From: Marinilabilia salmonicolor
Lineage (GTDB): Bacteria > Bacteroidota > Bacteroidia > Bacteroidales > Marinilabiliaceae
Direction: 5' to 3'
Length of the DNA stretch: 64,000 nt
Assembly: GCF_003003035.1 (NCBI RefSeq)
Contig: NZ_PVTS01000006.1
Coordinates: 234,977-298,976 of the forward strand
The position numbers and the translations under genes are program-made. Positions within the stretch are counted from its first letter, which is position 1, and every line of letters starts with the position of its first letter. The notes beneath the pieces are model-generated. The model made no database searches. It saw only the letters and a program-made list of their open reading frames with translations, and had not been told where the DNA came from. Of this stretch, positions 26,419 through 59,774 are shown piece by piece.

Positions 26419-26571
26419 AGTGTTTGTCTATAAAGTCCAACTTCTGCGTTGTTGCTCAAAATCTAAATCCTAAAATACACTAATATTCTGCGGTTTAGAT
26501 TTTTCACACGCCTTGAATTTGAACTTACTCGTTCAAACACATGAAAAACGTTTAGTTTATGGACAAACACT
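26419..26571. mobile_element. Inverted-repeat hairpin element, copy B
   Basis: 153 bp. Ends AGTGTTTGTCTATAAAG (left) and TTTATGGACAAACACT (right) are inverted repeats, flanked by TA on both sides, as for Tc1/IS630-type MITEs. Inside is a 10 bp stem AAAATCTAAA (26458-26467) with TTTAGATTTT (26494-26503) around a 26 nt loop. It lies between the hypothetical gene and the 3' end of ung. Copy E at 59625 is its closest relative. Confidence 0.75.
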
Positions 26572-26576
26572 AATGA

Positions 26577-27338
26577 TTACCAAAGCCTCTTCTGTCGTTG
26601 CACCGAAGAGGCTTTTTTATCTCCTCCTGTCCAGTCAATCAACCCGGAAGTAGCCTCAAAAACGTTTGTTTCTCCCAGTAAAAAATCATTAGGGCGCTCA
26701 TGGCAAATCATTGGATGTGTTGTGGAAATGCTATGCTTAATCTCAAGATGCTCCACTGCTTTTTGGGCGTGGTTTCCCCATAGAAACCAAACGGCATCCG
26801 GACAATTTTTATTAATAAAATCTAACAATCGGTCGGTAAAGGGTTTCCAGTATCCCGAATGACTTCCGGGTTTACCTACATGACAGGAAAATGAGGTATT
26901 CAGTAACAAAACACCCTGTTGTTCCCAATACTTAAACAGCTCATCCGGCGGGAGCAAAGAAAATTCCCCGGCAGCCATTTCTTTTTTGATGCCTTTGAAA
27001 GTTTTGAAATCCTTCCTTTCAGCAGCATAAAGCGCACGAACAATATTACGCAGGCTGGTATTCCGAAAACTTTCGGTCCAATTCTTCAATGGCCCCACCT
27101 CAAATGCCCTGCCCGTAGCAACCCCTTGCTGAGGGTAGGGATCCTGACCGAGAATCACTACTTTGGTTTTGAAAAGATCAAGGGCCAAAAACCGAAGCAT
27201 TCTATTTCTACCAGGCGTTAAATCTTCGCTGTTCGTAATTCCAATTTGGCTTTCAACATCATCAAGTATTGCCGAAATCTCCTGAGTAAAAAAAGGCTTC
27301 CAGGAAGGATGAATGTCTGAAGGTAAAATCATCTGCAT
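26577..27338 (-). CDS. ung: Uracil-DNA glycosylase (family 1, variant)
   Basis: A 253-residue DNA repair enzyme that removes uracil from DNA. The water-activating loop is ILGQDPYPQQG (usual GQDPYHG; the His is Pro here), the uracil-binding Asn is in GVLLLNTSFS, and the C-terminal HP motif is STTHPMICHERPNDF in place of HPSPLSAHRGF. WFLWGNHAQKA and the central fold match Ung. Compared with E. coli it has an insertion before LLPPDELFKYW. This variant form is common in some Bacteroidota. The start could also be the Met two codons later. Confidence 0.88.
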   Translation of the reverse strand: MQMILPSDIHPSWKPFFTQEISAILDDVESQIGITNSEDLTPGRNRMLRFLALDLFKTKVVILGQDPYPQQGVATGRAFEVGPLKNWTESFRNTSLRNIVRALYAAERKDFKTFKGIKKEMAAGEFSLLPPDELFKYWEQQGVLLLNTSFSCHVGKPGSHSGYWKPFTDRLLDFINKNCPDAVWFLWGNHAQKAVEHLEIKHSISTTHPMICHERPNDFLLGETNVFEATSGLIDWTGGDKKASSVQRQKRLW

Positions 27339-27354
27339 TATTCAAGTTCTAACT

Positions 27355-27520
27355 TGTTTCTGTCCATAAAGTACCACTTGCGTCGCGTTACGCTTGCCGC
27401 CAAAATACTCATTTACCCAAGTAAACTCCGCTTTTGGCGGCTGTACAAGCCTTGCAACTGGCACTTTCTAACCAGACACATGACCATGTACAAACTTAGC
27501 TTTGCTTATAGACGGGCACT
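27355..27520. mobile_element. Inverted-repeat hairpin element, copy C
   Basis: 166 bp. Left end TGTTTCTGTCCATAAAG and right end TTATAGACGGGCACT. The inner stem is GCCGCCAAAA (27396-27405) with TTTTGGCGGC (27432-27441), loop TACTCATTTACCCAAGTAAA plus ACTCCGC-type end. An outer pair, AAAGTACCACTTGC (27368-27381) with GCAACTGGCACTTT (27454-27467), matches at 12 of 14. It lies between divergent ung and the lipoprotein gene. Confidence 0.75.
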
Positions 27521-27690
27521 AACTTGGGACTTAACCTGATGTATCCGGTAAATTTTCAGGTTGAAAGTTCAAATATAACTAATCCTGTATTTTTCCAATC
27601 ATACCATCCCTCATTCAGCAATCATTTCCGGATAAAGAGAACATTAACAATTTTGTAACCCTGGATAAACACATATTCCCTCTGATTTGT

Positions 27691-27698
27691 TAGCTTTG
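27691..27698 (+). promoter_or_regulatory. Candidate -7 box of the split 5'-nucleotidase operon
   Basis: TAGCTTTG fits TAnnTTTG and lies 11 bp before the ATG at 27710, so the leader would be only a few nt. The -33 element is not obvious. Confidence 0.4.
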
Positions 27699-27709
27699 AA
27701 AACAAAAAA

Positions 27710-28465
27710 ATGCGACACCATCATTTTATTTTCATTCTTCTAACACTCGCAGCAATCAGCTGTCAGTCACCAGAAAAACCATCACTTACCTCGACTCAGA
27801 ACATAACCATCGATAGTACGATTGTAGCAGATTCGATGGTTGCATCTTACATTACACCACTTCGCGATTCGGTAAATGCAATAATGAACGAAGTCATCGG
27901 AACGTCACCGGAAGAAATGTTTGCAGACAAACCAGAGTCCCCTCTATCCAGCTTTGTTGCTGACCTTCTCAGGGAAACAGCTTTAAAAGAATTAAAGGAC
28001 CTGAACAAAGAAAAATTACCGGTTATTTCCATCATAAACATCCGGGGTTTGAGAGCTCCCCTCCCAAAGGGCTCCATAAAAGTTAAACACATCTATGCCC
28101 TGATGCCATTCGAAAATCAGATGGTTACCTTAAAAATGTCAGGCGAAGACATCAAAAAACTTTATCAGCACATAGGCGAATCCAACGGGGACGGCCTGAG
28201 TGGCGGTTCTTTTACTTTCACCGGTCAATCGGTAAAAAATCCGAGAATCAACAACCAACCGGTTAGAGACGAGGCCTTTTATTATGTGGTGACATCAGAT
28301 TACCTGGCCACCGGAGGCGACCATTACACCGTTTTTGCCAACGCCGTTGAAAAACATGAATCATCGAATAAAATCAGAGATTTGATCATTCGACACATTC
28401 GGGAATTAAATGAACAGAACAAACAGATTCCATCTCCATCAGATCAGCGAATCGAAATGCAATAA
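27710..28465 (+). CDS. Lipoprotein with 5'-nucleotidase C-terminal domain
   Basis: A 251-residue lipoprotein: signal peptide and lipobox LAAISC put the acylated Cys at about residue 18. The remainder is the substrate-binding C-terminal domain of UshA-type 5'-nucleotidases: SPLSSFVADLLRETA, then INIRGLRAPLPKGSIKVKHIY, MPFENQMVTLKMSG, and DYLATGGDHYTVF near the end. The catalytic metallophosphatase domain is encoded by the next gene, 15 bp downstream. Together they make a two-polypeptide 5'-nucleotidase, a split arrangement seen in Bacteroidota. Confidence 0.9.
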   Translation: MRHHHFIFILLTLAAISCQSPEKPSLTSTQNITIDSTIVADSMVASYITPLRDSVNAIMNEVIGTSPEEMFADKPESPLSSFVADLLRETALKELKDLNKEKLPVISIINIRGLRAPLPKGSIKVKHIYALMPFENQMVTLKMSGEDIKKLYQHIGESNGDGLSGGSFTFTGQSVKNPRINNQPVRDEAFYYVVTSDYLATGGDHYTVFANAVEKHESSNKIRDLIIRHIRELNEQNKQIPSPSDQRIEMQ

Positions 28466-28480
28466 AAAAAGCCATAGATC

Positions 28481-29392
28481 ATGCAAACCACCAGAAGACA
28501 ATTCATAAAGACCCTGGCTGCCGGGAGTCTGGCTGCCACCCTCCCATTTGCTGTAAAAGGAGAGTCGCGTAATTATCATACACTAACCATTCTACATACC
28601 AACGATGTCCACAGCCATCTCGATCCCTTTGAAGCCAATCATCCAAGGTTTCCTGACATGGGTGGATTTGCAAGAAGAGCAAGCCTCATAAACCAAATCA
28701 GGAAACAAAACAATCACGTTTTATTGGTGGATGCAGGTGATATTTTTCAGGGTACCCCATATTTTAACTTCTTTGGAGGAAGACCCGAATTGGAATTAAT
28801 GTCGAAAATGAGATACGATGCAGCAACCATCGGCAATCATGAATTTGATAATGGCATTCAGCACCTCTCTGACCAGTTGAAATATGCCGATTTTCCTTTC
28901 ATCTGTAGCAACTATAATTTCGACAACACCATCCTGAAAGGCAAAACCCGGCCCTGGAAAATCATTGAAAATGGCCCCTTCCGAGTTGGCATCGTAGGCA
29001 TTGGAATCAACCCTTCAGGGCTGGTATCCCCGGCAAATTATGAAGGAATGAAATGGCTTGATCCAATAAAAACAGCAGAGGAAACAGGAGCCTTCCTGAG
29101 AAATGAAAAGAACTGCAATCTCATCATTGCGTTATCGCACCTGGGCATCAACAGCACCTCCGAAAGGCCCGATTCGGACCGAAAACTAGCGGCAGAAACA
29201 TCCTCCATAGATATCATCATAGGAGGACACTCACACACATTTCTTGACGAACCTGAACAAATAAAAAACAAAGCAGGCAAAAATGTCATCATTAACCAGG
29301 TTGGCTGGGGCGGAGTAATTCTGGGAGAACTAAACATTACGCTAAGCAAAGGCAAAACAACTTTTCTTTCAACACAACATCTGCTAAAATAA
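28481..29392 (+). CDS. Metallophosphoesterase, catalytic half of a split 5'-nucleotidase (Tat-exported)
   Basis: A 303-residue periplasmic enzyme. The twin-arginine signal is TTRRQFIKTLAAGSLAA. The metal motifs follow: TNDVHSHLDPF, DAGDIFQGTP, GNHEFDNG, ALSHLG, and GGHSHTFLD, all intact. It lacks the C-terminal UshA domain, which is the neighbouring lipoprotein. It likely hydrolyses nucleotides or UDP-sugars outside the cytoplasm. The use of Tat here implies folding, and perhaps metal loading, before export. Confidence 0.92.
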   Translation: MQTTRRQFIKTLAAGSLAATLPFAVKGESRNYHTLTILHTNDVHSHLDPFEANHPRFPDMGGFARRASLINQIRKQNNHVLLVDAGDIFQGTPYFNFFGGRPELELMSKMRYDAATIGNHEFDNGIQHLSDQLKYADFPFICSNYNFDNTILKGKTRPWKIIENGPFRVGIVGIGINPSGLVSPANYEGMKWLDPIKTAEETGAFLRNEKNCNLIIALSHLGINSTSERPDSDRKLAAETSSIDIIIGGHSHTFLDEPEQIKNKAGKNVIINQVGWGGVILGELNITLSKGKTTFLSTQHLLK

Positions 29393-29596
29393 TGTTGCTT
29401 TGGGCACTTTTGAATTTAGTCTGAGAGAAAATCATTATTGTCCGGCTAAAATATAATTCTTGAAAAAAGACTGTGCCACGGTCCTCCTATTAACTCGATC
29501 CTACAGAATTGATGAAGATCAAGTGGCGTGCAAAATCAGATTTTTCATATAAATTATTGGCCTCTGAAGCATCGGGAGACCAAGGATGTAAAGGAT
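29393..29596. other. Intergenic region with a possible decayed gene
   Basis: There is no full gene. On the minus strand, downstream of the small frame at 29597-29719, a second frame runs about 36 codons with protein-like text (NPLHPWSPDASEANNLYEK) to a TAA at about 29490. It is one frame-shift away from the small frame, so the two may be parts of one broken gene. Confidence 0.25.
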
Positions 29597-29719
29597 TTAT
29601 ACATTTTCTTTCGTGACTTCTTTTTCCATGCTCGTTTCATTAGGAACATTTACCTCAAAATAATTATTGGCAACAAAAGTGTACAATAATTGAGTACGCA
29701 AAAAATCAGCCCGTCTCAT
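29597..29719 (-). pseudogene. Small open frame, possibly the 5' part of a frameshifted gene
   Basis: A 40-residue frame with ATG at 29719, beginning MRRADFLRTQLLYTFVANNY and ending KEVTKENV. It continues, after a one-base shift, into protein-like sequence. It lies just after the terminator hairpin of the Lrp gene, with no clear promoter. I do not recognise the product. It could equally be a chance frame. Confidence 0.22.
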
Positions 29720-29724
29720 CTCAC

Positions 29725-29771
29725 AAAAAAACGCGCAAAACCTCAGCAATGAGCTTTTTGCGCGTTTTTTT
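29725..29771. terminator. Bidirectional terminator between 5'-nucleotidase and Lrp genes
   Basis: Arms AAAAAACGCGCAAAA and TTTTTGCGCGTTTTTT, with an inner CTCA-GCAA-TGAG hairpin. T-runs occur on both strands. It sits 15 bp after the Lrp stop. Confidence 0.9.
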
Positions 29772-29785
29772 AATCTATAATTTAA

Positions 29786-30250
29786 TTACTCAATCGGTAA
29801 TTGTCTCTTGAATGACTCATCCAGTGAGATGATGGTCTCTGTTGAAGAGATACCCGGAATGTTTTGTAAACGATCGTGAAGGATACGTTTTAAATGCTCA
29901 TTACTTTTTGCAAAGATCTTGATAAACATGGCGTACTCACCTGTAGTATAGTGACATTCCACCACTTCCGGAATCTCTTCCAACATCTTTACCACCTTAT
30001 CAAAAAGGCTGGCTTTTTTGAGAAATATTCCCATAAAAGCACAGGTGTGATAACCAATTTTACTGGGATTAATAATAAACTCAGATCCCTTAATAACTCC
30101 CATATTCATCAAGCGCTGAATACGCTGATGAATAGCGGCTCCGGACACCTTACATTCCCTGGCAACTTCAAGAAACGGAATTCGGGCATTATGTGTAATC
30201 ATTGACAAAATCTTTTTGTCAAGACTATCAATCTGTAAATTGCTCTCCAT
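29786..30250 (-). CDS. Lrp/AsnC family transcriptional regulator
   Basis: A 154-residue regulator. The N-terminal helix-turn-helix (about residues 10-55) has the family phrase NARIPFLEVARECKVSGAAIHQRIQRL; the C-terminal RAM (ACT-like) effector domain includes GIFLKKASLFDKVVKMLEEIPEV and TTGEYAMFIKI. It probably senses an amino acid. The downstream terminator and the upstream MscS gene, 144 bp away, suggest a monocistronic unit. Confidence 0.93.
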   Translation of the reverse strand: MESNLQIDSLDKKILSMITHNARIPFLEVARECKVSGAAIHQRIQRLMNMGVIKGSEFIINPSKIGYHTCAFMGIFLKKASLFDKVVKMLEEIPEVVECHYTTGEYAMFIKIFAKSNEHLKRILHDRLQNIPGISSTETIISLDESFKRQLPIE

Positions 30251-30394
30251 ACTAAAAATGACAAATGTTAGAAATTAAAAGAATTTCTGCTTTTTTTTTA
30301 ATGATTCTTTTCGAATTTACGGGATTTTCTCCAATAATCCAATAAATCTGCGGCAAAAATAGCACTAATAATTTTCTTCCTTTCGGTTTCACTT

Positions 30395-31681
30395 TCAATT
30401 TTTAACCAAACTGCCTAACATTTTCAAATCGTCGCCACTGGGATTCTGAAATATCCGGAGTTCAAACAAAGGAATTATTGCTAAAACATGATCAAAAATA
30501 TCGGCTTGTACTGCCTCATATTTAGCCCATTCCTGCTCCCTTGAAAAAGCATAAATCTGCATAGGAATTCCTTTTTCTGTAGGATCCAGATGACGAACAA
30601 TCAGCGTCATTTTATCATTAATCTTCGGATGTTTAATCAGATAGTTCTCCAGGTATTTTCTGAAAATCCCCAGATTCGTCATCCTTCTCCCGTTTACAGG
30701 TAAGGATTCATCAATTTCATGTTGTCTGTTGTAATTCTCTATTTCTATTTGTCGTTCCTCGATATATGCTTTTAAATGATGAATCTTTTTAAATTTCTCC
30801 AACATTTCAGGAGTACAAAACTTAACACTATGAGTATCGATAAACACAGACCGGGCTATACGGCGTCCACCGGACTCCTCCATCCCCCGCCAGTTGACAA
30901 AGGAGTTGGAAACCATAGCATAGGTAGGTATGGTGGATATGGTTTTATCCCAATTCCTGACTTTCACGGTATTCAGTGTTATTTCCAACACTGTACCATC
31001 TGCATTGTGCCCCGGCATGGATATCCAGTCTCCTACCCTGACCATCCGGTTGGCTGACAATTGCACACCGGCAACCAACCCCAGTATAGAATCCCGGAAC
31101 ACCAACATCAACACAGCAGCTAAAGCACCCATACCAGCAATAATTGCGGTTACCTCAACATTAAAAACAATAGAAACAGCAATCAACACTCCAACTATAA
31201 TTGCCAATAGCTGAATAACCTGTAAGTACCCCTTTATTGGCCGGTCGTAAGCAAAAGGAAAAGTATTATAAATATCTTCAAATGCCTTGAGAAGGGCCTG
31301 GAAAGCCATAATGATGACCACAAGCAAATAAAGAGAAACGATGTCATGAAAAACGGCGAGACGAGCGGTCTGAGCTCCCCAAAAAAGGTCGGAAAGAAAA
31401 TAAATAACAATCACCGGAGCCAAATGTGCAAGCCTGTGAAAAACTTTTCGGTGAACCAGATAATCATCAATCTTTGACTTGGTTTTTCGGACCATCTTAA
31501 TAATTGAAAAAATCAAAACCCGACGGACAACCACAAAAGACAGCCACGAAAGTAACAGCATTATTACTGCGGAAACCCCAAATAATAGCACCTCAGTCCA
31601 AAACTCAGATAGATTTAGCAACTCCAACCGGGAATGCAACCACTCTGTCATCCATGTAACATTAGAATTTATCGTCTCCAT
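30395..31681 (-). CDS. Mechanosensitive channel, MscS family (YbdG-like)
   Basis: A 428-residue inner-membrane channel with five or so TM helices (about residues 25-185), then the MscS core: GALAAVLMLVFRDSILGLVAGVQ, the pore-lining and post-pore helix, followed by VGDWISMPGHNADGTVLEI beta domain. Extra N-terminal helices and the soluble C-terminal extension match the YbdG/YnaI-type larger MscS proteins. It vents solutes on hypo-osmotic shock, which suits the osmolyte-making genes at 7 kb. Confidence 0.9.
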   Translation of the reverse strand: METINSNVTWMTEWLHSRLELLNLSEFWTEVLLFGVSAVIMLLLSWLSFVVVRRVLIFSIIKMVRKTKSKIDDYLVHRKVFHRLAHLAPVIVIYFLSDLFWGAQTARLAVFHDIVSLYLLVVIIMAFQALLKAFEDIYNTFPFAYDRPIKGYLQVIQLLAIIVGVLIAVSIVFNVEVTAIIAGMGALAAVLMLVFRDSILGLVAGVQLSANRMVRVGDWISMPGHNADGTVLEITLNTVKVRNWDKTISTIPTYAMVSNSFVNWRGMEESGGRRIARSVFIDTHSVKFCTPEMLEKFKKIHHLKAYIEERQIEIENYNRQHEIDESLPVNGRRMTNLGIFRKYLENYLIKHPKINDKMTLIVRHLDPTEKGIPMQIYAFSREQEWAKYEAVQADIFDHVLAIIPLFELRIFQNPSGDDLKMLGSLVKN

Positions 31682-31876
31682 GCTTTAATTATTACAATGA
31701 TTTTGTATATTTTTGTTTGTACTACAACTTTAACCTAAACCGAATCTTAACCCGGAACTCCTGAACCTCATTTACAATGCCGAAAAGAAGTTGAAGCCCA
31801 TAAATATCACTTCAAAAATCCGATGTTCAGCACAAAAATAACGAAACCACCGGATGTAACCTATCATAATGAAGCT

Positions 31877-33154
31877 ATGAACACAAAATATATATTTAAG
31901 ACAATAGCCTTTTCAATCTTTTTTATTTCGACATGGTCTTACAGCCAGGGCAATTTTGATTTCGAAAAGGCGCTCCGAATAGACTTCGTCCTTTCCGGTG
32001 ACAAACAGGAACAAACAGCAACCATTGCAAATTACCTGAAGACACCAAACTACTTTGACAGTCCTGAACAATCCATTCCTGATTTCGATTATGGCTCCTA
32101 TCGAATTGTGCTCACCTCATCAGCAAACCGGGACACCCTCTATATAAAAGGTTTTTGCACCCTTTTTGAAGAATGGCGGGCCACACCTGGGGCCAAACAA
32201 AAGAAAAGGGCCTTCAAACAAACGATTGAAACCCCCTTCCCCCTGCAAAAAATAATCATAAACCTCGATTTTAGAGAGAAAAACGGGAAATTTACCTCCC
32301 TGCTGAGTGAGGAGTTTTCTCCCGAATCGCTCATCACAAAACTAATCCCGACAAAATTTCCGTCAAGGATTATTCATGGAACCGCTGCCCCGTCAAAAAA
32401 ATTGGATTTTTTGATTTTAGCCGAAGGATACACCAAGGAAGAGGCAGAAACTTTTTTTAATGATGCGGAAAAAATGGTTTCAGAACTTTTTAAGACTCCT
32501 CCATACGATCGGCTTAAGAATAAAATTACCGTAAGAGCAATGGCTGTTTCATCGGCTGAATCAGGAACAGACGATCCGGTAAAGGATGAATGGAAAAACA
32601 CAGCCATGGAAAGTACATTCAACACTTTTGGGACCGACCGCTATCTGGAAAGTCTCTCCACCTGGAAAATATACGATTATGCCGCAGCCCACCCGCGCGA
32701 TCACATTATAGTATTGGTCAACACGAAAAAATATGGCGGCGGCGGCGTTTACAACCATTTTTCCATTACCTCAGCCGGTCACTCCCAGTCTGCGAAAGTT
32801 CTCATTCACGAAATCGGGCATGGTCTCGCCGGTTTAGGAGATGAATATTACTCCTCCGAGGTAACCTATTCCGGTTTTTTTGATCTGGATACCGAACCCT
32901 GGCATCCCAACATTACCACTTTAGTTGATTTTGACAGCAAATGGAAAAATTTGCTTGAGGATTCAATACTGATTCCCACCCCCGCAAAACACAAATACAA
33001 AAACATTACCGGGGTGTTCGAAGGTGCAGGTTATACCGCCAAAGGAATTTACCGACCAGCCTTTAATTGCCGGATGAAATCAAATGAGGCAGCCGGTTTT
33101 TGTGAAGTATGCAGGCTGTCCATTGAAAATATTGTCAATTTTTATACACACTAA
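31877..33154 (+). CDS. M64 family metallopeptidase (IgA peptidase M64-like)
   Basis: A 425-residue secreted zinc peptidase. The ATG at 31877 gives a signal peptide (TIAFSIFFISTWSYSQ); the frame extends 18 codons further upstream without signal character. The N-terminal part (about 20-170) is the M64 prodomain, then LDFLILAEGYTKEEAETFF and the zinc motif LIHEIGHGLAGLGDEYY (first His about residue 311). The third ligand is probably the Asp in the GDEYY part, as in the family. Family members cleave glycoproteins such as IgA; the physiological substrate here is unknown. Confidence 0.9.
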   Translation: MNTKYIFKTIAFSIFFISTWSYSQGNFDFEKALRIDFVLSGDKQEQTATIANYLKTPNYFDSPEQSIPDFDYGSYRIVLTSSANRDTLYIKGFCTLFEEWRATPGAKQKKRAFKQTIETPFPLQKIIINLDFREKNGKFTSLLSEEFSPESLITKLIPTKFPSRIIHGTAAPSKKLDFLILAEGYTKEEAETFFNDAEKMVSELFKTPPYDRLKNKITVRAMAVSSAESGTDDPVKDEWKNTAMESTFNTFGTDRYLESLSTWKIYDYAAAHPRDHIIVLVNTKKYGGGGVYNHFSITSAGHSQSAKVLIHEIGHGLAGLGDEYYSSEVTYSGFFDLDTEPWHPNITTLVDFDSKWKNLLEDSILIPTPAKHKYKNITGVFEGAGYTAKGIYRPAFNCRMKSNEAAGFCEVCRLSIENIVNFYTH

Positions 33155-33178
33155 AAACATCAATAATAAAAACAACTT

Positions 33179-34171
33179 ATGAATTATTTAGCCAACGACA
33201 AACGTTACGAAAAAATGACATACCGCCGTTGCGGTGAAAGTGGAATAAGATTACCCGCACTTTCCCTCGGCTTGTGGCACAATTTCGGATCAGTAGATTT
33301 ATTTGAAAATGGTCGCAACATTCTTCACCATGCATTCGACAATGGAATTACCCATTTCGACCTGGCCAACAACTACGGACCTGTTCCGGGAAGTGCGGAA
33401 GAAAATTTTGGCCGTATTCTGGCCACCGATTTCAAACCTTACCGCGATGAAATGATTATTTCCTCAAAAGCAGGGTACCTGATGTGGCCCGGACCATACG
33501 GAGAATGGGGTTCCAGAAAATATCTTCTGGCCAGTCTGGATCAGAGTCTGAAACGAATGGGCTTGGACTACGTGGATATTTTTTACTCTCATCGTCCCGA
33601 CCCGGACACTCCCCTGGAAGAAACCATGGGAGCTCTGGCACATGCAGTTAAACAGGGGAAAGCTCTGTATGCAGGAATCTCCAATTATCCGGCAGATATG
33701 ACAAAAAAAGCAGAAACCATTCTTCGTGATATGGGAGTTCCTTTGCTCATTCATCAGCCCCGTTACAACATGCTGGATCGTTGGGTGGAGGATGATGGTC
33801 TTCTTGATGTACTCGGAAAGCGAGGAGTTGGTTCAATTGCCTTTTCACCTCTGGCCCAGGGTCTGTTAACCAACAAGTATCTGAAAGAGATACCCGCCAA
33901 TTCCCGCATGGCTAATCCTCACGGGTTTCTACAGAAAGATGCACTTACTCCGGAAGTTCAATCTAAGCTTAATAAACTAAACAGCCTTGCCGAAGCCAGA
34001 GGTCAGTCACTGGCACAAATGTCCATTGCATGGTTGCTCAAAGACACAAGAGTCACCTCTGTTCTGATAGGCGCCAGCAGTGTGAATCAACTCAGCAACA
34101 ACCTGGATGCACTCAACAATACAGCATTCACCGATGAGGAGTTGAATGACATTGAGAAAATTTTGAAATAA
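33179..34171 (+). CDS. Aldo/keto reductase, YghZ-like (L-glyceraldehyde 3-phosphate reductase)
   Basis: A 330-residue NADPH-dependent oxidoreductase. N-terminal MTYRRCGESGIRLPALSLGLWHNFG and FDLANNYGPVPGSAEENFG (catalytic Tyr in NNYG), the Lys in SSKAGYLM, then YSHRPDPDTPLEETMGAL and the C-terminal NADP site VTSVLIGASSVNQLSNNL. These blocks are those of the YghZ/Gpr subgroup, which detoxifies methylglyoxal and L-glyceraldehyde 3-phosphate. It lies 24 bp after the M64 gene, so co-transcription is possible. Confidence 0.91.
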   Translation: MNYLANDKRYEKMTYRRCGESGIRLPALSLGLWHNFGSVDLFENGRNILHHAFDNGITHFDLANNYGPVPGSAEENFGRILATDFKPYRDEMIISSKAGYLMWPGPYGEWGSRKYLLASLDQSLKRMGLDYVDIFYSHRPDPDTPLEETMGALAHAVKQGKALYAGISNYPADMTKKAETILRDMGVPLLIHQPRYNMLDRWVEDDGLLDVLGKRGVGSIAFSPLAQGLLTNKYLKEIPANSRMANPHGFLQKDALTPEVQSKLNKLNSLAEARGQSLAQMSIAWLLKDTRVTSVLIGASSVNQLSNNLDALNNTAFTDEELNDIEKILK

Positions 34172-34178
34172 TCAGAAC

Positions 34179-34217
34179 AAGCTGAGGTTGAACAAGAAGT
34201 TCTTCCTCAGCTTATTT
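34179..34217 (+). terminator. Terminator of the aldo/keto reductase gene
   Basis: AAGCTGAGG (34179-34187) pairs with CCTCAGCTT (34205-34213) around an inner GAAC/GTTC stem; an ATTTT tail follows. Confidence 0.75.
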
Positions 34218-47156: not shown

Positions 47157-47161
47157 GCTTG

Positions 47162-49420: not shown

Positions 49421-49430
49421 AAAACAAAAT

Positions 49431-49593
49431 AGTGTCTGTCCATAAAATCCCGTTTACTGCGTTATACCATTCACGGAAACTACTCATTTACTCAGGTAAA
49501 CTCCGCATTTCCGTGAATGGCAAGCCTTGTAAACGAAACCTTATGAACAGACACAGTACTTGTAAAATGTTTTCCCGACTTTATAGACGGACT
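49431..49593. mobile_element. Inverted-repeat hairpin element, copy D
   Basis: 163 bp. Left end AGTGTCTGTCCATAAA, right end TTATAGACGGACT. Inner stem CCATTCACGGAAA (49467-49479) pairs perfectly with TTTCCGTGAATGG (49508-49520), with a loop that shares CTCATTTAC and GTAAACTCCGC with copy C although the arms differ. Outer stem CGTTTAC (49451-49457) pairs with GTAAACG (49529-49535). Confidence 0.77.
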
Positions 49594-49636
49594 CAAAATA
49601 GGCCAACGACCACACCTGACAATATCAGTTTTTTCC

Positions 49637-52255: not shown

Positions 52256-52264
52256 ACACAGTTA

Positions 52265-52603
52265 TTAATGACTACATTGATTAACACCGGCCACCAACTT
52301 ATCTGCCAGAAACTCATCAACCAATTCTTTTGGAACTTTTGCAGGTACACCAATGACGGGTTTAACCCCGAATTGATTAAACAAATCAACAGCCTTTTGA
52401 CCAATCCCGCCTACCAGAACAACATTCACTCCTTCTTCACTGAGCCAACGCGGAATCACACCCGGCTCATGAGGAGGCGGAACAACCTCTTTGGTTTGCC
52501 GAACTTCACCGTTTACCACATCGGCGATGAAAAAAAACTCACAATGCCCAAAGTGGGCACTCAATAGACCGTTAACAACGGGAACTGCAACTCTCTGCTC
52601 CAT
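52265..52603 (-). CDS. NifX/NifB C-terminal-like (dinitrogenase FeMo-cofactor) family protein
   Basis: A 112-residue small protein with the fold of NifX and of the NifB C-terminal domain: RVAVPVVNGLLSAHFGHCEFFF and GVNVVLVGGIGQKAVDLF. Outside nitrogen fixers these proteins probably bind or carry iron-sulfur or Fe-Mo type cofactors. Neighbours DUF5320 and DUF134 are a recurrent association. No nif genes are visible. Confidence 0.85.
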   Translation of the reverse strand: MEQRVAVPVVNGLLSAHFGHCEFFFIADVVNGEVRQTKEVVPPPHEPGVIPRWLSEEGVNVVLVGGIGQKAVDLFNQFGVKPVIGVPAKVPKELVDEFLADKLVAGVNQCSH

Positions 52604-52625
52604 ATTTTACATTTAGATAATTAAC

Positions 52626-52686
52626 AAAAAACAACCGGCCGGTTTCAAACAAAACGCTATAAAACAATCGGAAAACCGGCCGGTTG
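52626..52686 (-). terminator. Double-palindrome terminator or operator between DUF5320 and NifX-like genes
   Basis: CAACCGGCCGGTTT (52632-52645) pairs with AAACCGGCCGGTTG (52673-52686) over 14 bp, followed on the minus strand by six T (52631-52626). Each half is itself the 12 bp palindrome AACCGGCCGGTT, so it may also be a tandem operator. It ends 23 bp before the NifX-like ATG, which would suit an attenuating terminator. Confidence 0.7.
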
Positions 52687-52768
52687 AAATCAATCATAAA
52701 GATTGTGTGCCAATTAATAAATTTCTTCAATAATTTAACAACAGACACACTTGCACTGAAAAAAACCT

Positions 52769-52960
52769 TTAAAAGTTACCGCGTCCGCTCATTCCTCTTC
52801 CGCGGCCGCGACCACTATTCCCCATTCCGGAACGACGCCCCGCACCACGCCTGTTTTCATCATTGGTATATCCGGGATTGTCATTTCCGCTACAAAGGCC
52901 TTTGCCTCTACCGGTACGGGATCCTTGTCCCATTGGTCCGGTTTTATCTCCTCGTGGCAT
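52769..52960 (-). CDS. DUF5320 family small Gly/Arg-rich protein
   Basis: A 63-residue protein starting MPRGDKTGPMGQGSRTGRGKG, then a single C23 in GLCSGNDNPGY and a Gly/Arg/Ser-rich tail (GRGRGRGMSGRGNF). This is the DUF5320 pattern, usually found beside NifX-type proteins and DUF134 regulators. The ATG at 52960 is chosen over a longer frame because the family begins MPRGD. Function unknown. Confidence 0.82.
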   Translation of the reverse strand: MPRGDKTGPMGQGSRTGRGKGLCSGNDNPGYTNDENRRGAGRRSGMGNSGRGRGRGMSGRGNF

Positions 52961-53036
52961 AAAACATAGTTTTAATAAAAATTCGATACTACAAAGTGAA
53001 CAAATGTTCACTTAAAAAGCAAATTTTTTTGAACTT

Positions 53037-53447
53037 TTATTCGCAGGTATGTAACAACTCAGGAATAGCCAACCTGGTAACTTTATTTTTTTCATTCAAT
53101 GCGGTCATAATAAAGAGAGCTTTTGCTGCCAGATCTTTTTCGGTGCTGTACAGAGACTCACTAAATATTTTCACCTCAACTTCAAGTCTGACACTTCCTG
53201 CATTTTTGACATTTGCCACCACTTCAGCAATAGAATTTTCCTGAACAGGACAAATAAATTCCACATTTTCAACCTTGGCGGTAAACATTTTCTGACGCGT
53301 AGCACGTGTGGCACAAATAAATGCTACCTCGTCCATCCATTTCATCAACTCTCCGCCAAAAAGAGTTTCATTGGCATTTAAGGTTCCGGGAAAAACCATT
53401 TTACACTGCCTTGTTTCAGCTTCCCGAAAAAATTCCTGATGTGACAT
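53037..53447 (-). CDS. Acyl-CoA thioesterase, hotdog fold (YciA/BFIT-like)
   Basis: A 136-residue cytosolic thioesterase. The start at 53447 (MSHQEFF) is chosen because an in-frame extension of 86 residues overlaps the divergent DUF134 gene and is not protein-like. Family blocks are MVFPGTLNANETLFGGELMKWMDEVAFICATR (catalytic Asp/Glu region) and VENVEFICPVQEN. A -7 box reading TATTTTTG on the minus strand (53472-53465) supports its own promoter. Confidence 0.85.
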   Translation of the reverse strand: MSHQEFFREAETRQCKMVFPGTLNANETLFGGELMKWMDEVAFICATRATRQKMFTAKVENVEFICPVQENSIAEVVANVKNAGSVRLEVEVKIFSESLYSTEKDLAAKALFIMTALNEKNKVTRLAIPELLHTCE

Positions 53448-53464
53448 AACGCTTAATTTTGCTG

Positions 53465-53472
53465 CAAAAATA
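53465..53472 (-). promoter_or_regulatory. Candidate -7 box of the thioesterase gene
   Basis: Minus-strand TATTTTTG, 17 bp before the ATG at 53447. Confidence 0.45.
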
Positions 53473-53537
53473 GTTATAAAATTCGAGTCTCCGAACAATC
53501 GTTCACTACCGCAACAATAGGATTCGATGAATTTACC

Positions 53538-53545
53538 TATATTTG
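53538..53545 (+). promoter_or_regulatory. Candidate -7 box of the DUF134 gene
   Basis: Plus-strand TATATTTG, 19 bp before the ATG at 53565. Confidence 0.45.
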
Positions 53546-53564
53546 CAAAATAAAATTTCAGTAA

Positions 53565-53969
53565 ATGCCAAATCAACGACGCCAAAGAAAGATTCAGTCT
53601 CCCCCGCCCATGGATGGTTTTAAGCCCTATGGAGTGCGGATGAGAAACATGGAAAAGGTTATTTTGCTTTTTGAAGAATATGAAGCCATCAGACTGATTG
53701 ACCACGAAGACCTGAATCAGGAAGAAGCTGCAGCAAGAATGGATGTGTCAAGGCCTACATTTACGCGCATATACAAAAAAGCAAGGCAAACCGTAGCCAA
53801 AGCTTTGGTAGAAGGAAAAGCGTTGTTGATTGAAGGTGGAACCTACATTTCCGAAAACTATTGGGTCCGTTGCGGTAAGTGTTCCAAATTAACCACCGCC
53901 CCCGATCCGGTACAGAACTGTCCCCATTGCCATTCGGATAAAATGAAAAACATTCATCAACCTGAATAA
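53565..53969 (+). CDS. DUF134 family DNA-binding protein
   Basis: A 134-residue predicted transcription factor. Central sigma-70 region 4-like helix-turn-helix: YEAIRLIDHEDLNQEEAAARM and VSRPTFTRIYKKARQTVAKAL. The C-terminus has a zinc-ribbon-like CGKC plus CPHC pair, which many DUF134 proteins have. It is divergent from the thioesterase and probably regulates the NifX/DUF5320 group, perhaps through the AACCGGCCGGTT sites. Confidence 0.87.
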   Translation: MPNQRRQRKIQSPPPMDGFKPYGVRMRNMEKVILLFEEYEAIRLIDHEDLNQEEAAARMDVSRPTFTRIYKKARQTVAKALVEGKALLIEGGTYISENYWVRCGKCSKLTTAPDPVQNCPHCHSDKMKNIHQPE

Positions 53970-53971
53970 AC

Positions 53972-54003
53972 AAAAAAACCGGTGTTTTAAGCCGGTTTTT
54001 TTT
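53972..54003. terminator. Bidirectional terminator between DUF134 and xylE
   Basis: AAAAAAACCGG (53972-53982) pairs with CCGGTTTTTTT (53992-54002), loop of 9, with T-runs on both strands. Confidence 0.9.
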
Positions 54004-54019
54004 GTTTTACTATGATTCT

Positions 54020-55405
54020 TTATTTTTCTTTCTCCCAAATGGCTTCCATATCTTCCAGGGTCCTTCCTTTTGTTTCAGGAACATATTTCCACACAAAGAT
54101 TAAAGAAAGAATACTCATGATACCATATACACTATAGGTCATTGCCCCACTGAACTCCATCATGGCCGGATAAGTAGATGAAATCAGGTAGTTGGCAGAC
54201 CACTGAGCTGCCACAGCGATAGCAACAGCTTTACCCCGTATCCTGTTGGGAAATATTTCGGAGATCAGCACCCAGGTAATGGGTCCCCATGACATCATAA
54301 AGGACGCAGTATAAACGATCATAAATACAAGTGTGCTGATGCCGATAACATCAAAATAAGCCAGGCCGGCAATGGCAAACATACCGATGGCCATACCTGA
54401 AGATCCAACAATCAGCAAAGGTTTCCTTCCCCATTTGTCAACGGTAAATATTGCAACAACTGTGAATACAACATTTACAAGACCCATAATTACAGTCTGC
54501 ATCATGGAAGCATCCTTGGCAGCCCCCATACTTTCAAAAATACGTGGTGCATAATACAGCGCCACATTGATACCCACAAACTGCTGAAAAATAGAGAGTA
54601 GAATACCTACAACAATTACAGTTTTACCGAAGGAGAATAATTTCCCGGAGTGGTGTTCCACACTGCTTTTGATGTCCTGCATTATTGACCGGGCAATTTC
54701 CTTACCGTTAATACGGCTCAAAATACTGTAAGCTTTCTCATCCTGATGGTTCAACGCCAAATAGCGGGGTGTTTCAGGAACCAGGAAGAGCAATAAACCA
54801 AACAGACCCGCAGGAACAGTTTCAGATAAGAACATTCTTCTCCAACCAACCTCATTTATCCACTCTAATGTCTGACCGTGCGCAATACCCCAGTTCACAA
54901 AATAAACCACAAGCATTCCGAAAATAATGGCAAACTGGTTCAGAGATACCAATGTACCCCGAATTTTGGCAGGAGCAACTTCACCAATATACATCGGGCT
55001 CACGGCAGAGGCAAGTCCCACTCCGATTCCTCCGATTACCCGGTAGAAATTAAACATTACCAATAAACCGATACTGGCCTCTCCGGCCTCAAAAAACAGA
55101 AACTCAGGATAAGCAGATCCCAGCGCAGAGATAAAAAACAAAATGGCAGCAAATTGCAAGGAACGTTTTCGCCCGAAATTAGAGGCAAGAATACCGGAGA
55201 TCAGACCTCCAATTATACATCCAATTAAAGCACTGGAGGTAGTGATTCCATGAACCAACGTGCTCAATCCCTGACTGTCTATCAGGAATGCCTGTACAGA
55301 TTTCTCTGCTCCTGAAATTACAGCCGTGTCATAGCCAAAAAGAAGTCCACCCAGGGTGGCAACAAGAGTGATGGCAATAACATAAAACTTATTTTGTCCT
55401 TCCAT
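54020..55405 (-). CDS. xylE: Sugar porter MFS transporter, xylose/H+ symporter-like
   Basis: A 461-residue 12-TM sugar porter. Signatures: LGGLLFGYDTAVISG, NFGRKRSLQF (GRK loop), RVIGGIGVGLASAVSPMYIGE, PETPRYL, QQFVGINVALYYAPRIFE, and the terminal PETKGRTLEDME. The xylose isomerase and xylulokinase genes upstream make xylose the likely substrate. A terminator at 55496 separates it from xylA, so it may have its own promoter as well as readthrough. Confidence 0.9.
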   Translation of the reverse strand: MEGQNKFYVIAITLVATLGGLLFGYDTAVISGAEKSVQAFLIDSQGLSTLVHGITTSSALIGCIIGGLISGILASNFGRKRSLQFAAILFFISALGSAYPEFLFFEAGEASIGLLVMFNFYRVIGGIGVGLASAVSPMYIGEVAPAKIRGTLVSLNQFAIIFGMLVVYFVNWGIAHGQTLEWINEVGWRRMFLSETVPAGLFGLLLFLVPETPRYLALNHQDEKAYSILSRINGKEIARSIMQDIKSSVEHHSGKLFSFGKTVIVVGILLSIFQQFVGINVALYYAPRIFESMGAAKDASMMQTVIMGLVNVVFTVVAIFTVDKWGRKPLLIVGSSGMAIGMFAIAGLAYFDVIGISTLVFMIVYTASFMMSWGPITWVLISEIFPNRIRGKAVAIAVAAQWSANYLISSTYPAMMEFSGAMTYSVYGIMSILSLIFVWKYVPETKGRTLEDMEAIWEKEK

Positions 55406-55495
55406 GAATATACTTTTATACTTAGTTTATAAAATACACTACGAAACTACAATAATTTTAATTAACTAAACAATATTAACAATTAATCTCCCAGC

Positions 55496-55533
55496 AAAAA
55501 AGAAGCGACAACCGTGAGTCACAGCGTCGCTTC
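55496..55533 (-). terminator. Terminator of xylBA
   Basis: GAAGCGAC (55502-55509) pairs with GTCGCTTC (55526-55533), with a weak inner stem; minus-strand U-run 55501-55496. Confidence 0.85.
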
Positions 55534-55562
55534 CTTATTTAGAGAAAAATCTACGGCATGAT

Positions 55563-56888
55563 TTAGATATACAGGTTGATCAACTGCTCATAAAGCTCCT
55601 GCTTACCGCTGGTCATGGCAGGTTCACCTGCCTCCAGAGCGATTTTACGCAGATCCTCGAGAGTCAGTTTGCCATTCTCAAATTCAGCACCTTTTCCGTT
55701 GTCAAATGAAGCATAACGGGTTGCACGCATTTTTTTGTAATCTGAGTCGGTAAGAAGTTTGTCAGCCGACTTCAAAGCACGGGCAAATACGTCCATGGCA
55801 GCAATGTGAGCAATAAAGAGATCGTCACGATCGGTAGAGTTACGACGCAATTTGGCATCGAAATTCACACCACCTGTTGTAAAACCACCAGACTCAAGAA
55901 TTACGAGCATAGCTTCGATGGTCTCATAAATATTAATGGGGAACTGGTCGGTATCCCAACCATTCTGATAATCACCACGGTTGGCATCGATACTTCCGAG
56001 TAATCCGGCATTGGCAGCCATCTGCAACTCGTGCTGGAAGGTATGCTGAGCCAGGGTAGCGTGGTTCACTTCGATGTTCAGTTTAAAATCTTTGTCCAAA
56101 CCATACTGACGCAGGAAGCCAATCACAGTTTCTGAGTCAAAATCGTACTGGTGCTTGGTAGGCTCCATTGGCTTAGGCTCAATCAGGAAAGTTCCGTTGA
56201 AGCCATTTTTGCGACCATAGTCACGGGCCATTGTGAGCAACTGAGCAAGATGTTCTTTCTCACGTTTGGTGTCGGTATTGAGCAAAGACATATAACCTTC
56301 ACGACCACCCCAGAAAACATAGTTTTCACCACCAAGAGCAACAGTTGCATCAATGGCATTCTTAATCTGAGTTCCGGCATGAGCCAACACATTGAAATCA
56401 GGGTTGGTTCCGGCACCATTCATATAGCGGGGGTTGCTGAATACATTGGCAGTTCCCCAAAGCAATTTGATACCAGAAGCCTTTTGCTTTTCTTTGGCAT
56501 ATTCAATCATTGTTTGCAGACGCTTCTCAATGTCGCCAACAGCGCCATCTTCAACAACATCAATATCGTGGAAGCACCAGAAAGGCATTCCCAGCTTGGT
56601 CATAAACTCAAAAGCAGCATCCATACGGTTTTTGTTACGCTCTTCTACATCAGAAGAAGCATCCCAGGGAAACTTGGTTGTACCGCCACCAAACGGGTCA
56701 CCACCATCACCGGTCATTGCATGCCAGTATGAAAGGGCAAAACGAAAATGCTCTTTCATGGTTTTTCCGGCAACAACCTCTTCTTCGTTGTACCATTTGA
56801 AAGCCAAAGGATTCTTTGAATCTTTACCTTCAAATTTAATTTTCCCTATCCCGGGAAAGTACTCTTGTTTTCCAATTAATACATCCAT
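55563..56888 (-). CDS. xylA: Xylose isomerase
   Basis: A 441-residue enzyme converting D-xylose to D-xylulose. The long (class II) form, with [22 protein letters not shown] near the N-terminus, [13 protein letters not shown] (catalytic His), [36 protein letters not shown] (metal Glu and Lys), [20 protein letters not shown] (metal Asp). Length matches 438-442 in Bacteroidota. It lies 6 bp after xylB. Confidence 0.97.
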
Positions 56889-56894
56889 TGTTCT

Positions 56895-58379
56895 CTATTT
56901 TAAAAGTTTATTTAATTGTTGTTTCCAGTCTTCGTAATGTTCATTCACTTTATCTCTGTCGGCATCAGGCTTAATAACCTCGAGGCGTGTAAGATTATCG
57001 AAAGCTTCTTTGGGACTCTTCCAGATTCCGGCACCTACAGCAGCACCACGGGCAGCTCCCAATGAGCCATCAGTGTCATACAACTCAATGGTTGCATTGG
57101 CCAGGTTGGCAAGTGTCTGACGGAAAAGAGGGCTCAGGAACATATTGGCCTTTCCGGCTCGAATAACTTTTGTATCTACTCCCATATCGCCCATAATATC
57201 CATTCCATACCTGAAAGAAAATGCAATTCCTTCCTGTCCGGCTCTCAACAGGTGTGCCTGTTTATGAATATTGAAATTAAGTCCTTTAAGAACAGCTCCG
57301 GGGTTCACATCTTCCAAAACCCGTTCGGCACCATTTCCGAAAGGGAAAAACCGCAATCCTTCAGCTCCAACCGGTGCCTGCATTGCCACCTCATTAATTT
57401 GAGGATAATCCAGTTCTTTTGCGGTGTTCTGACGCAACCATGCATTGAGAATACCGGTTCCGTTGATACAAAGCAAAATTCCCAGACGACGCTGATCTGC
57501 AGTATGATTCACATGAGCAAATGTATTCACTCTCGATTTGGGGTCGGGAGCCAACCGGTCACTCACTCCGTAAACCACACCTGAAGTTCCCGCAGTGGCA
57601 GCAACCTCACCAGGCTCAAGCACGTTCAACGAGAAAGCATTGTTTGGTTGATCTCCAGCTCTGTATGCCACTGGAATACCAGCAGGAAGCCCCAGTTCAG
57701 AAGCCACTGTGGAGGTCAACTCTCCCTGAGGGGCAAAAGTCCCAACCTGTTCGGGTAAGAGCCCTTCATCAAATCCAAAATATTGGAGCAACTCTTTGGA
57801 GATGGAGTCTGACTGAAAATCCACAAATATTCCTTCAGACAACCCTGAGAGCGTAGTTGTTTTCTTTCCGGTGAGCCGATAGGCAATATAATCACCCGGA
57901 AGCATAATCTTATCAATCTTTTGATAAACTTCAGGCTCATTTTCCTTAACCCACTTCAATTTCGCAGCAGTAAAATTACCGGGAGAATTGAGCAAATGAT
58001 TCAAAGACCATTCCTCACCCAGCGTCTTAAATGCCTCACGACCATAATCAACAGCCCTGCTGTCACACCAGATAATGGATGGCCGAACTACGTTTCCATC
58101 TTTATCCAGGGCAACCAGCCCATGCATCTGGTAGGTAATACCAATGGCTTTAATATCAGACACCTCAATATTTGCGGTGTCCAAAACTTCTTTAAGCGCA
58201 TTTTTAATATTTTCCCACCAATCTTCGGGTGCCTGTTCAGCCCATTCAGCCTGCGGAACCGAAATGGCCATCTCAGTTTTTGGATAAAACGCCGAGGCGG
58301 CACTGGTACCTTTTTCTATATCCAGCAGACTTACTTTAACTGATGAACTCCCTATGTCAAAACCAAGTGTGTACTTCAT
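56895..58379 (-). CDS. xylB: Xylulokinase (FGGY family)
   Basis: A 494-residue sugar kinase phosphorylating D-xylulose. FGGY motifs: FDIGSSSVKVSLLD at the N-terminus, GITYQMHGLVALDKDGNVVRPSIIWCD, DYIAYRLTGKKTT, and GSLGAARGAAVGAG near the end. First gene of the xylBA operon, 68 bp downstream of xylR. The motif TCTGTTCTGGT occurs 11 bp before its start and also directly before the xylR start. Confidence 0.95.
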   Translation of the reverse strand: MKYTLGFDIGSSSVKVSLLDIEKGTSAASAFYPKTEMAISVPQAEWAEQAPEDWWENIKNALKEVLDTANIEVSDIKAIGITYQMHGLVALDKDGNVVRPSIIWCDSRAVDYGREAFKTLGEEWSLNHLLNSPGNFTAAKLKWVKENEPEVYQKIDKIMLPGDYIAYRLTGKKTTTLSGLSEGIFVDFQSDSISKELLQYFGFDEGLLPEQVGTFAPQGELTSTVASELGLPAGIPVAYRAGDQPNNAFSLNVLEPGEVAATAGTSGVVYGVSDRLAPDPKSRVNTFAHVNHTADQRRLGILLCINGTGILNAWLRQNTAKELDYPQINEVAMQAPVGAEGLRFFPFGNGAERVLEDVNPGAVLKGLNFNIHKQAHLLRAGQEGIAFSFRYGMDIMGDMGVDTKVIRAGKANMFLSPLFRQTLANLANATIELYDTDGSLGAARGAAVGAGIWKSPKEAFDNLTRLEVIKPDADRDKVNEHYEDWKQQLNKLLK

Positions 58380-58389
58380 TTTACTCTGT

Positions 58390-58400
58390 TCTGTTCTGGT
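58390..58400. promoter_or_regulatory. Candidate XylR operator upstream of xylB
   Basis: TCTGTTCTGGT on the plus strand (ACCAGAACAGA in gene sense), identical to the 11-mer just before xylR. It is a partial repeat (TCTGTTCTGTT overlaps it). Not seen before other genes I checked. Confidence 0.35.
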
Positions 58401-58447
58401 TAGATATTAATATAAATTCTTCAAACTCTATTTGTTATTTTTCATTG

Positions 58448-59461
58448 TTACAAAGATTCCCGGATACGTAAAGTTGTAGGTATGCAGAGTCGCATTGGTT
58501 CATCATTGGCAACAAATTCGGCAGCTCTTCTTCCCATTTCTGCAAAGTCGGTGGACAAGACTGTTATTCCTTTGTAGATGAACTTTTTCATCGGGGTTTC
58601 ATTGTATGAAACAAATCCTACATCCTGTCCAGGTTCCAGATTTTTCTCCCGCGTTTGTTCCAAAAAACGACCAAGAATCCGGTCACTTACACTAATATAA
58701 GCAACACCTTTCTTAATATCAAATAAATCACTGTTTTTTAAGACATCATATTTGACATGATGCTTTTTACAAAACTTAATAAAATAATTGACTGATTCGT
58801 AGGGGTGGTTGGTATATTCAGGATACACAAACTCAAAGTGATCGTATTTTTTGATCAGATGAAGGGCCTTTTCAAACTCTTCAAACAGTGGTCGTCCAAA
58901 ATCCTGATAAAGAATATTGCTTTCCGGAGTAGAATAAAGATTCCAGTCAATAAGCAAAAGTTTATCCTGGGGAATGACTCCAAGAATATCCTGCATCGAT
59001 GGGTCATCAAATGGCATTACCACATATTTGGCATACTTCCCGATGCTTTCCTCAATCTGCTTTTTGAAAACATCCGGTTTATAATGGTGAAAATGAACAT
59101 CCGCAATAACATTCTTGGGCAAATTTTTAAAAAAGGAATCATACAATACTTCCTTATAAGCCTTAAAAGTATCGAGAAACAAAAACACCCTCCGGATCTC
59201 TTTTGCTATAAAGTAACCTTTATTCGGGACACTTTCGATAACTCCCTGCTCTTTTAATAAAGAATAAGCCTTAAAAACGGTATCTCTGGACAGCGTGTAT
59301 TCTTTACAAACCTGATTTACCGATGGCAAATGGTCACCAATACTAAGCTTTTTTTCCGAAATTGCATTGTTTACGGACTCTACCAATTGACGAAATTTCG
59401 GGACATCCGAAGTGCTATCAATCAGGAACTTAAAGTCATTTATTTTGTTATTTTCAGCCAT
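58448..59461 (-). CDS. xylR: XylR-type regulator (GntR HTH + LacI-like sugar-binding domain)
   Basis: A 337-residue regulator. The N-terminal GntR winged helix (about residues 10-85): FRQLVESVNNAISEKKL, IGDHLPSVNQVCKEY, LSRDTVFKAYSLLKEQGVIES. The rest is a periplasmic-binding-type effector domain (FLDTFKAYKEVLYDSF, PFDDPSMQDILG, VGFVSYNETPMKKF, TTLRIRESL). It heads the xylose cluster and presumably represses xylBA until xylose or a derivative binds, as for XylR regulators in other Bacteroidota. It probably autoregulates: the shared 11-mer sits directly before its start. Confidence 0.88.
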   Translation of the reverse strand: MAENNKINDFKFLIDSTSDVPKFRQLVESVNNAISEKKLSIGDHLPSVNQVCKEYTLSRDTVFKAYSLLKEQGVIESVPNKGYFIAKEIRRVFLFLDTFKAYKEVLYDSFFKNLPKNVIADVHFHHYKPDVFKKQIEESIGKYAKYVVMPFDDPSMQDILGVIPQDKLLLIDWNLYSTPESNILYQDFGRPLFEEFEKALHLIKKYDHFEFVYPEYTNHPYESVNYFIKFCKKHHVKYDVLKNSDLFDIKKGVAYISVSDRILGRFLEQTREKNLEPGQDVGFVSYNETPMKKFIYKGITVLSTDFAEMGRRAAEFVANDEPMRLCIPTTLRIRESL

Positions 59462-59472
59462 TCTGTTCTGGT
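59462..59472. promoter_or_regulatory. Candidate XylR operator at the xylR start
   Basis: Second copy of TCTGTTCTGGT, adjacent to the xylR ATG, lying in the 5' leader downstream of the -7 box. Confidence 0.35.
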
Positions 59473-59484
59473 ATGTGGACAGTG

Positions 59485-59492
59485 CAAATATA
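59485..59492 (-). promoter_or_regulatory. Candidate -7 box of xylR
   Basis: Minus-strand TATATTTG, 23 bp before the xylR ATG. Confidence 0.5.
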
Positions 59493-59624
59493 GTTTATTT
59501 ATAATTACGACCATAAAATGTTCAATAAAAAAATTCCACACACCGGGACATCAATCACTAAAATACTGGTCTAAAAATAATTAGCTCACATATTTTTTTT
59601 CTTGAGTTGACATAAGCTTTATTT

Positions 59625-59774
59625 AGTGTCTGTCCATAAAGTCCAACTTCTGCGTTGTTGCTCAAAACCTAAATCCACAAATACATTAGAATTCTGCAGT
59701 TTAGATTTTTAACACGCTTTGAATTTGACCTTTCTAGTTCAAGCATGGGAAAAACGCTTAGTTTATGGAAGACT
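59625..59774. mobile_element. Inverted-repeat hairpin element, copy E
   Basis: 150 bp, closest to copy B. Left end AGTGTCTGTCCATAAAG is intact; the right end GTTTATGGAAGACT has lost bases. The inner stem AAAACCTAAA with TTTAGATTTT carries one mismatch, so this copy seems to be decaying. It lies between xylR and the helicase leader. Confidence 0.72.

Follow-up and report, generated by a model that had tools for sequence, protein, structure and literature searches.

The hairpin elements analyzed in this study form a genuine family of non-autonomous elements with a conserved structure, for which both mobility and covariation of the hairpin arms were observed. They are best read as a cross-phylum family whose members combine ends of the IS5 type with a conserved hairpin core of DNA. 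The family features many copies, target duplications, two IS5-family ends in Pseudomonas, corresponding IS that lack the core, covarying arms, and motifs kept at fixed places across taxa. The elements were studied in a 64,000-nucleotide stretch of the Marinilabilia salmonicolor genome (GCF_003003035.1, contig NZ_PVTS01000006.1, positions 234,977 to 298,976), referred to as the window, as well as in the genome of this organism as a whole and in genomes of other taxa.

Element copies in the analyzed window

Four full copies (B to E) and a 44-bp remnant (A) had been described in the original prediction, and all five places were borne out, each on the plus strand. Copy B (26419..26571) is a full element flanked by AATT and AATG, whose apex has diverged to AATA/TATT as compared to TTTAC/GTAAA. 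Copy C (27355..27520) is a full element located between 4-bp direct repeats of AACT, representing the left (27351..27354) and right (27521..27524) target duplications. Likewise, copy D is bordered by AAAT on both sides, the left and right target duplications lying at 49427..49430 and 49596..49599; its right end, previously placed at 49593, had to be corrected, so that the full element spans 49431..49595. Copy E (59625..59774) is of the B type, matching copy B with 87% over 145 bp (blast match), and its right end is damaged: ATTT precedes the element and recurs 2 bp past the given end. Remnant A (6184..6227) comprises both ends without the core. A comparable end-to-end pair of approximately 80 bp, too short for a core and resembling remnant A, was observed elsewhere in the genome (G000:C1:73444-73526). 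The ends of the window type read AGTGTYTGTCCATAAAG, corresponding to the pattern TGT-C-AAAGT. None of the copies A to E overlaps an ORF of at least 90 aa, which agrees with their description as intergenic.

The inner arms of the copies differ in sequence and are nevertheless paired, as originally proposed (AAAATCTAAA in B, GCCGCCAAAA in C, and CCATTCACGGAAA in D), with a single C·A mismatch in E, and the loops of C and D were confirmed to have CTCATTTAC-N4-GTAAACTCCGC in common. A covariance model search, suggested as a check, was carried out with model R1, which was built without sequences of this genome. It recovered the hairpin core modules of copy D (49458..49529, plus strand, E 3.4e-8) and copy C (27384..27454, plus strand, E 3.4e-6) in the window, and missed copies B and E, in which the apex has diverged. 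A weak match of the model on the minus strand (29725-29773, E 0.25) is likely due to chance.

Architecture of the element

From the outside to the inside, the element is composed of an end, the outer arms, the motif pair CGTT/GCCT, the inner arms, TCA/CTSC, an apex stem TTTAC/GTAAA, and a free tetraloop. At least 76 out of 88 full-length copies measure 152-199 bp, and the elements are short and geneless and carry terminal inverted repeats, as is characteristic of MITEs. When arms of 8-26/6-26 nt were allowed, the inner arms fell mainly into three length classes, namely 18/17 nt (44 of 110 elements), 18/18 (21 of 110), and 19/18 (20 of 110); in the 18/17 class, the inner stem is interrupted by a bulged T and a TC/TC loop.

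Since the scan pattern prescribed the apex, its constancy in core-selected sets is given by construction, whereas CGTT and GCCT were left free in the core-only scan. CGTT was found 15-26 nt left of the core in 71 out of 115 elements selected by the core only (7.5 with the letters shuffled), GCCT right of the core in 80 of them (7.7 shuffled), and both motifs together in 60. The corresponding values for the Halomonadaceae were 33, 43, and 31 out of 49 elements. Selection in the opposite direction, by the window's ends alone, yielded 30 places, 13 of which feature a similar apex, including seven with the canonical stem. Moreover, the apex stem itself covaries, being TTGAC/GTCAA in Cryomorpha and AATA/TATT in copy B.

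Small GC-rich hairpins, e.g., CCCCGAAGAAAAATCGGGG, were also noticed inside the element at a GCC/TTG motif (L016, L017, L021, L028 of the M. salmonicolor genome, L069, and L125), and similar ones at the apex in L326, L334, and L337.

Distribution of the family

Copies C and D are members of a genome-wide family far above chance: the core CTCATTTAC-N4-GTAAACTSCG, searched with at most one mismatch, yielded 80 matches in the 4.79 Mb genome of M. salmonicolor as compared to 0 for the reversed pattern. For B-type copies with their diverged apex, 47 further blast matches were listed in this genome, some of them being parts of one copy. In a scan of named genomes, at least 117 stretches with the core were obtained from Pseudomonas, Halomonas relatives, Vibrio, Mariprofundales, Bacteroidales, Prevotellaceae, and others; many of these genomes are MAGs, and single cases may represent contamination. 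The most similar named elements, as judged by eye, were those of Marinilabilia (L124 and L132).

Among 19 genomes picked for holding a core, the copy number ranged from 1 to 82, with 0 control matches in each. The core was present in 63 out of 151 genomes sampled from the family of Salinicola (L077), in 28 out of 398 Pseudomonadota genomes, with one control match across all of them, and in 3 out of 395 Bacteroidota genomes, M. salmonicolor included. The element family is widespread but patchy. The most core matches of any genome seen (290) occurred in a 2.0 Mb pseudomonadotal genome (G677). A search of phage records with the Pseudomonas-type core gave no match, and the family was not found in a literature search including motif strings, most subscription journals and all supplements being beyond its reach.

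Covariation of the hairpin arms

Covarying arms, proposed from the few copies in the window, were found genome-wide and across phyla. Arm complementarity was compared with that of shuffled arms, which had been named as the refuting check. The pairing score within elements amounted to 17.7 against a shuffle maximum of 11.2 for 115 cross-taxon elements (2000 shuffles), and to 20.0 against a maximum of 16.0 for 52 elements of the M. salmonicolor genome. The outer arms, likewise described as changing without loss of pairing, scored 27.7 within elements compared to a shuffle maximum of 14.9 (90 elements).

Alignment A1, consisting of 45 gap-free elements with 24 pairs (1080 cells), allowed these changes to be counted. 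Pairing was found in 93.1% of the cells, and 171 cells had changed on both sides and were still paired, the shuffle mean being 45.3 and none of 500 shuffles reaching this number; the covariation score was 0.432, as opposed to 0.147 in shuffles. Sliding the partners by one column reduced the paired cells from 93% to 45-50%. Two-sided changes are distributed over 15 of the 24 pairs, while seven invariant pairs (five of the apex, 25-47, and 3-65) are uninformative on covariation. Helix 1 (columns 1-3) is a less favourable case, as only 79% of its cells are paired and compensation is lacking, its two outer pairs holding in only 24 and 38 of the 45 elements. The covariation counts support the original view that a constraint or a copying process acts on the fold.

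Within the M. salmonicolor genome, about five inner arm types, some of them alike, were distinguished among 33 distinct arm pairs, and 30 of these pairs contain a complementary stretch of at least 8 (mismatches allowed). A few chimaeras with the left arm of one subfamily, the right arm of another, and a broken stem were also seen, which likely go back to recombination between copies. Both flanks were in common in 16 out of 28 ortholog-like pairs. Among these orthologous sites, L262/L278 differ by two-sided changes that preserve pairing in five stem pairs, and L154/L177 in two; one-sided changes, G·T included, were present as well. Since these changes occurred in pairs at shared flanks, compensation also happens in place. 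Four elements of the Salinicola family (L077, L154, L177, and L259) share one flanking locus, presumably just after rho, and show paired differences there.

The 171 two-sided changes compared to 11 wobble cells, and the different arm types of subfamilies within one genome, speak for pure copying, in which template switching at the hairpin rewrites one arm from the other and no protein reads the fold. Such a process should, however, erase asymmetric motifs, whereas the 60 core-only-selected elements mentioned above carry both a left-hand CGTT and a right-hand GCCT, and we consider copying alone an unlikely explanation. The 26 invariant columns of A1 provide no evidence against it, because all of them were fixed by the search pattern, and they were dropped as evidence. 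Our weighing of the explanations was left unchanged by this step, since the support from CGTT/GCCT and from the apex of end-selected places was not fixed by the pattern.

Fold at the RNA or DNA level

The fold might instead be kept at the RNA level, with selection acting on transcripts in which the elements serve as terminators, small RNAs, or hairpins of the 3' end. Mismatch counts bear on this explanation. The 675 stem cells of A1 comprise 618 Watson-Crick pairs, and G·T (11 cells) is about as rare as A·C (14 cells), the remaining 32 cells being other combinations. Selection on RNA would be expected to favour G·U. The 13 tRNAs found in these loci contained 18 G·T but no A·C, this being a rough control, as ARAGORN itself favours paired stems. 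Similar proportions were obtained for 60 elements representing the 18/17 (45) and 18/18 (15) classes out of 92 elements (23 G·T, 21 A·C), for the arms of the M. salmonicolor genome (16 G·T, 12 A·C), and for cross-taxon local alignments (27 G·T, 36 A·C). Nearly equal and low numbers of both mismatches speak against a wobble-tolerant RNA fold. They fit a constraint on both strands (cruciform) and arm-to-arm copying alike, and would also follow from perfect palindromes that arise and then decay without selection. Looser counts featured an excess of A·C, namely 67 compared to 28 G·T for unequal arms, and 20 compared to 5 for the 19/18 class, where ten of the 20 fall into one poorly paired column beside the motif. 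This excess could reflect a fold of the other strand alone; the fixed-column counts are preferred because the alignment of unequal arms crossed unpaired motif columns.

The position of the elements relative to genes is more favourable to selection in transcripts. The end of a sense gene lies no more than 80 nt to the left of the core in 38 out of 91 cross-taxon loci, as compared to 13 out of 91 for the mirror case, and in 33 out of 44 Halomonadaceae loci, compared to 7 out of 44, some of the latter sites being orthologous; these counts refer to plain ORFs, and 13 and 6 cores, respectively, lie inside such an ORF. The excess just past stop codons could originate from a target containing stop-codon letters or from a transcript-level effect. 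Transcripts of MITEs can form stem-loops, as described in PMC10969869. At the Rfam gathering score, no match was obtained in the 64-kb window. Seven other loci gave seven matches with E up to 1, the only one above the cut-off being the small RNA family FopS (L159, 1835-1917), 3.7 kb from the core, while a sub-threshold match to a miRNA family (28.9 bits, cut-off 110) overlies the core of L093, likely by chance. Taken together, we regard maintenance of the fold in RNA as improbable.

A bias towards one replication strand was considered separately and rejected, as no GC-skew signal was found on the core strand in the M. salmonicolor genome (27 loci) or in the Halomonadaceae (29 loci); the cross-taxon set gave a weak signal (72 of 114 positive, p 0.009).

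Mobility and target duplication

Identical 4-bp flanks border 53 out of 88 full-length copies, compared to 1, 0, 1, and 2 at four control offsets, and TANNTA is the target in 40 of these 53 duplications. At locus L307, an element with ACTT repeats on either side splits a Y1 transposase gene, the two halves of which are collinear with five paralogues. The elements are mobile and non-autonomous, and the TA adjoining their ends belongs to TANNTA, the preferred target. An ordinary Tc1/IS630-type MITE, originally suggested on account of this TA beside the ends of the M. salmonicolor copies, is very improbable, because the target duplication is 4 bp and not TA, and the IS5-family members ISPs1 and ISPst12 have the same ends as two element types of Pseudomonas.

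Ends and candidate transposases

The search for a transposase with matching ends, proposed as a further check, gave matches for these two Pseudomonas end types. The end of the Pseudomonas element L127 agrees in 20 out of 20 bases with ISPs1 (annotated as IS5-like), which carries the repeat at both of its ends. The other common Pseudomonas end, represented by a composite query, matches ISPst12, also annotated as IS5-like, in 21 out of 21 bases, and the opposite end of ISPst12 matches the query with 2 mismatches; by eye, 19 of the 21 bases are present in the right end of L074. The core is absent from all three IS loci read (ISPs1 and ISPst12 types) when up to 5 mismatches are allowed. Among 203 core places, left ends with at most 2 mismatches were ISPs1-like in 7, ISPst12-like in 12, and of the window type in 11 cases, these numbers not being deduplicated and some matches likely arising by chance.

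The ends in the window (TGT-C-AAAGT) appear IS5-like, judging from their resemblance by eye. The same check yielded no partner in the M. salmonicolor genome: IS1182 had no match, DDE_Tnp_1_2 was not detected, and none of five DDE_Tnp_1 loci featured window-type ends within 4 mismatches. Two partial plasmid matches to the window-type ends were obtained, with no annotated transposase beside the one examined. Selection by the window's ends gave 30 loci of up to 3 kb in four genomes, and no long element that might represent an autonomous copy was clear in them. Second end-like matches, each with 3 mismatches, are located 655 bp away in L320, where no ORF exceeds 83 codons, and 947 bp away in L329, inside an ORF that is methyltransferase-like by eye. 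In the 25 largest protein clusters within 2.5 kb of the cores in the loci of the named-genome scan, no transposase was recognised by eye as a shared mobile gene. With regard to a linked RAYT gene, as found with REP sequences, a Y1 motif search of 1.32 Mb of loci and the window returned two low-confidence ORFs; nine Y1 matches over the cut-off were obtained in the M. salmonicolor genome, and only the L307 locus holds an element, which interrupts the gene.

Proposed mode of movement and relation to known elements

It is somewhat more probable than the opposite that small non-autonomous elements making a 4-bp duplication are moved in trans by IS5-family transposases and that their core hairpin is recognised as folded DNA. 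Trans-mobilisation by IS5-family enzymes is likely. Transposition in the M. salmonicolor genome would be of the IS5 type, the functional form is presumably a cruciform or a single-strand DNA hairpin, and a protein is assumed to read the core motifs. The arms may drift in complementary pairs, either because their sequence is less important than the fold or because one arm serves as the template of the other. Since the ends lie within the outer arms, which covary as well, both ends could change together, and a lineage could thereby pass from one transposase to another. An extended version of this idea, which we put forward tentatively and hold to be possible rather than probable, is that of a DNA hairpin lineage older than any of its transposases. 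The lineage would survive by conserving a structure that is recognised as folded DNA, and joint rewriting of its two ends would let it hop between IS5-family transposases across phyla.

The elements resemble bacterial MITEs, those of the IS5 family in particular, in being short and geneless, in their terminal inverted repeats, target duplication, and many intergenic copies, and in sharing ends with IS (ISPs1 and ISPst12 in Pseudomonas). They are unlike them in that a shared core, absent from those IS, recurs across phyla with different ends and covarying arms. Integron attC sites are recognised by their fold and extrahelical bases while the arms vary, which is a similar feature; however, attC recombination leaves no target duplication, in contrast to the identical 4-bp flanks of 53 out of 88 copies described here. 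REP and REPIN sequences with GTAG and CGTC tags are, according to PMC3733652, 20-40 bp long and extragenic, and their stems differ between families by complementary changes. Short conserved tags, complementary stem changes, and extragenic location are thus common to both, whereas the present elements are mostly 152-199 bp long, carry other motifs, and generate a 4-bp target duplication. No recurrent GTAG or CGTC tag was seen in the element alignments, and the lengths also differ. The R178 repeat of P. fluorescens is described in PMC2718517 as 101 bp long with an internal 11-bp inverted repeat, three genomes containing 18, 28, and 9 copies. Going by this description, it might represent the element as it occurs in Pseudomonas.

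MITEs are commonly regarded as defunct fragments of a single IS whose core is of no importance. In the present family, it is the core that is conserved, whereas the ends can be exchanged, and this holds for Pseudomonadota and Bacteroidota at least. Provided that the fold is recognised in DNA, the elements would represent a natural family for measuring structural covariation at the DNA level apart from RNA, and would offer a handle on a structure-reading factor not yet known.
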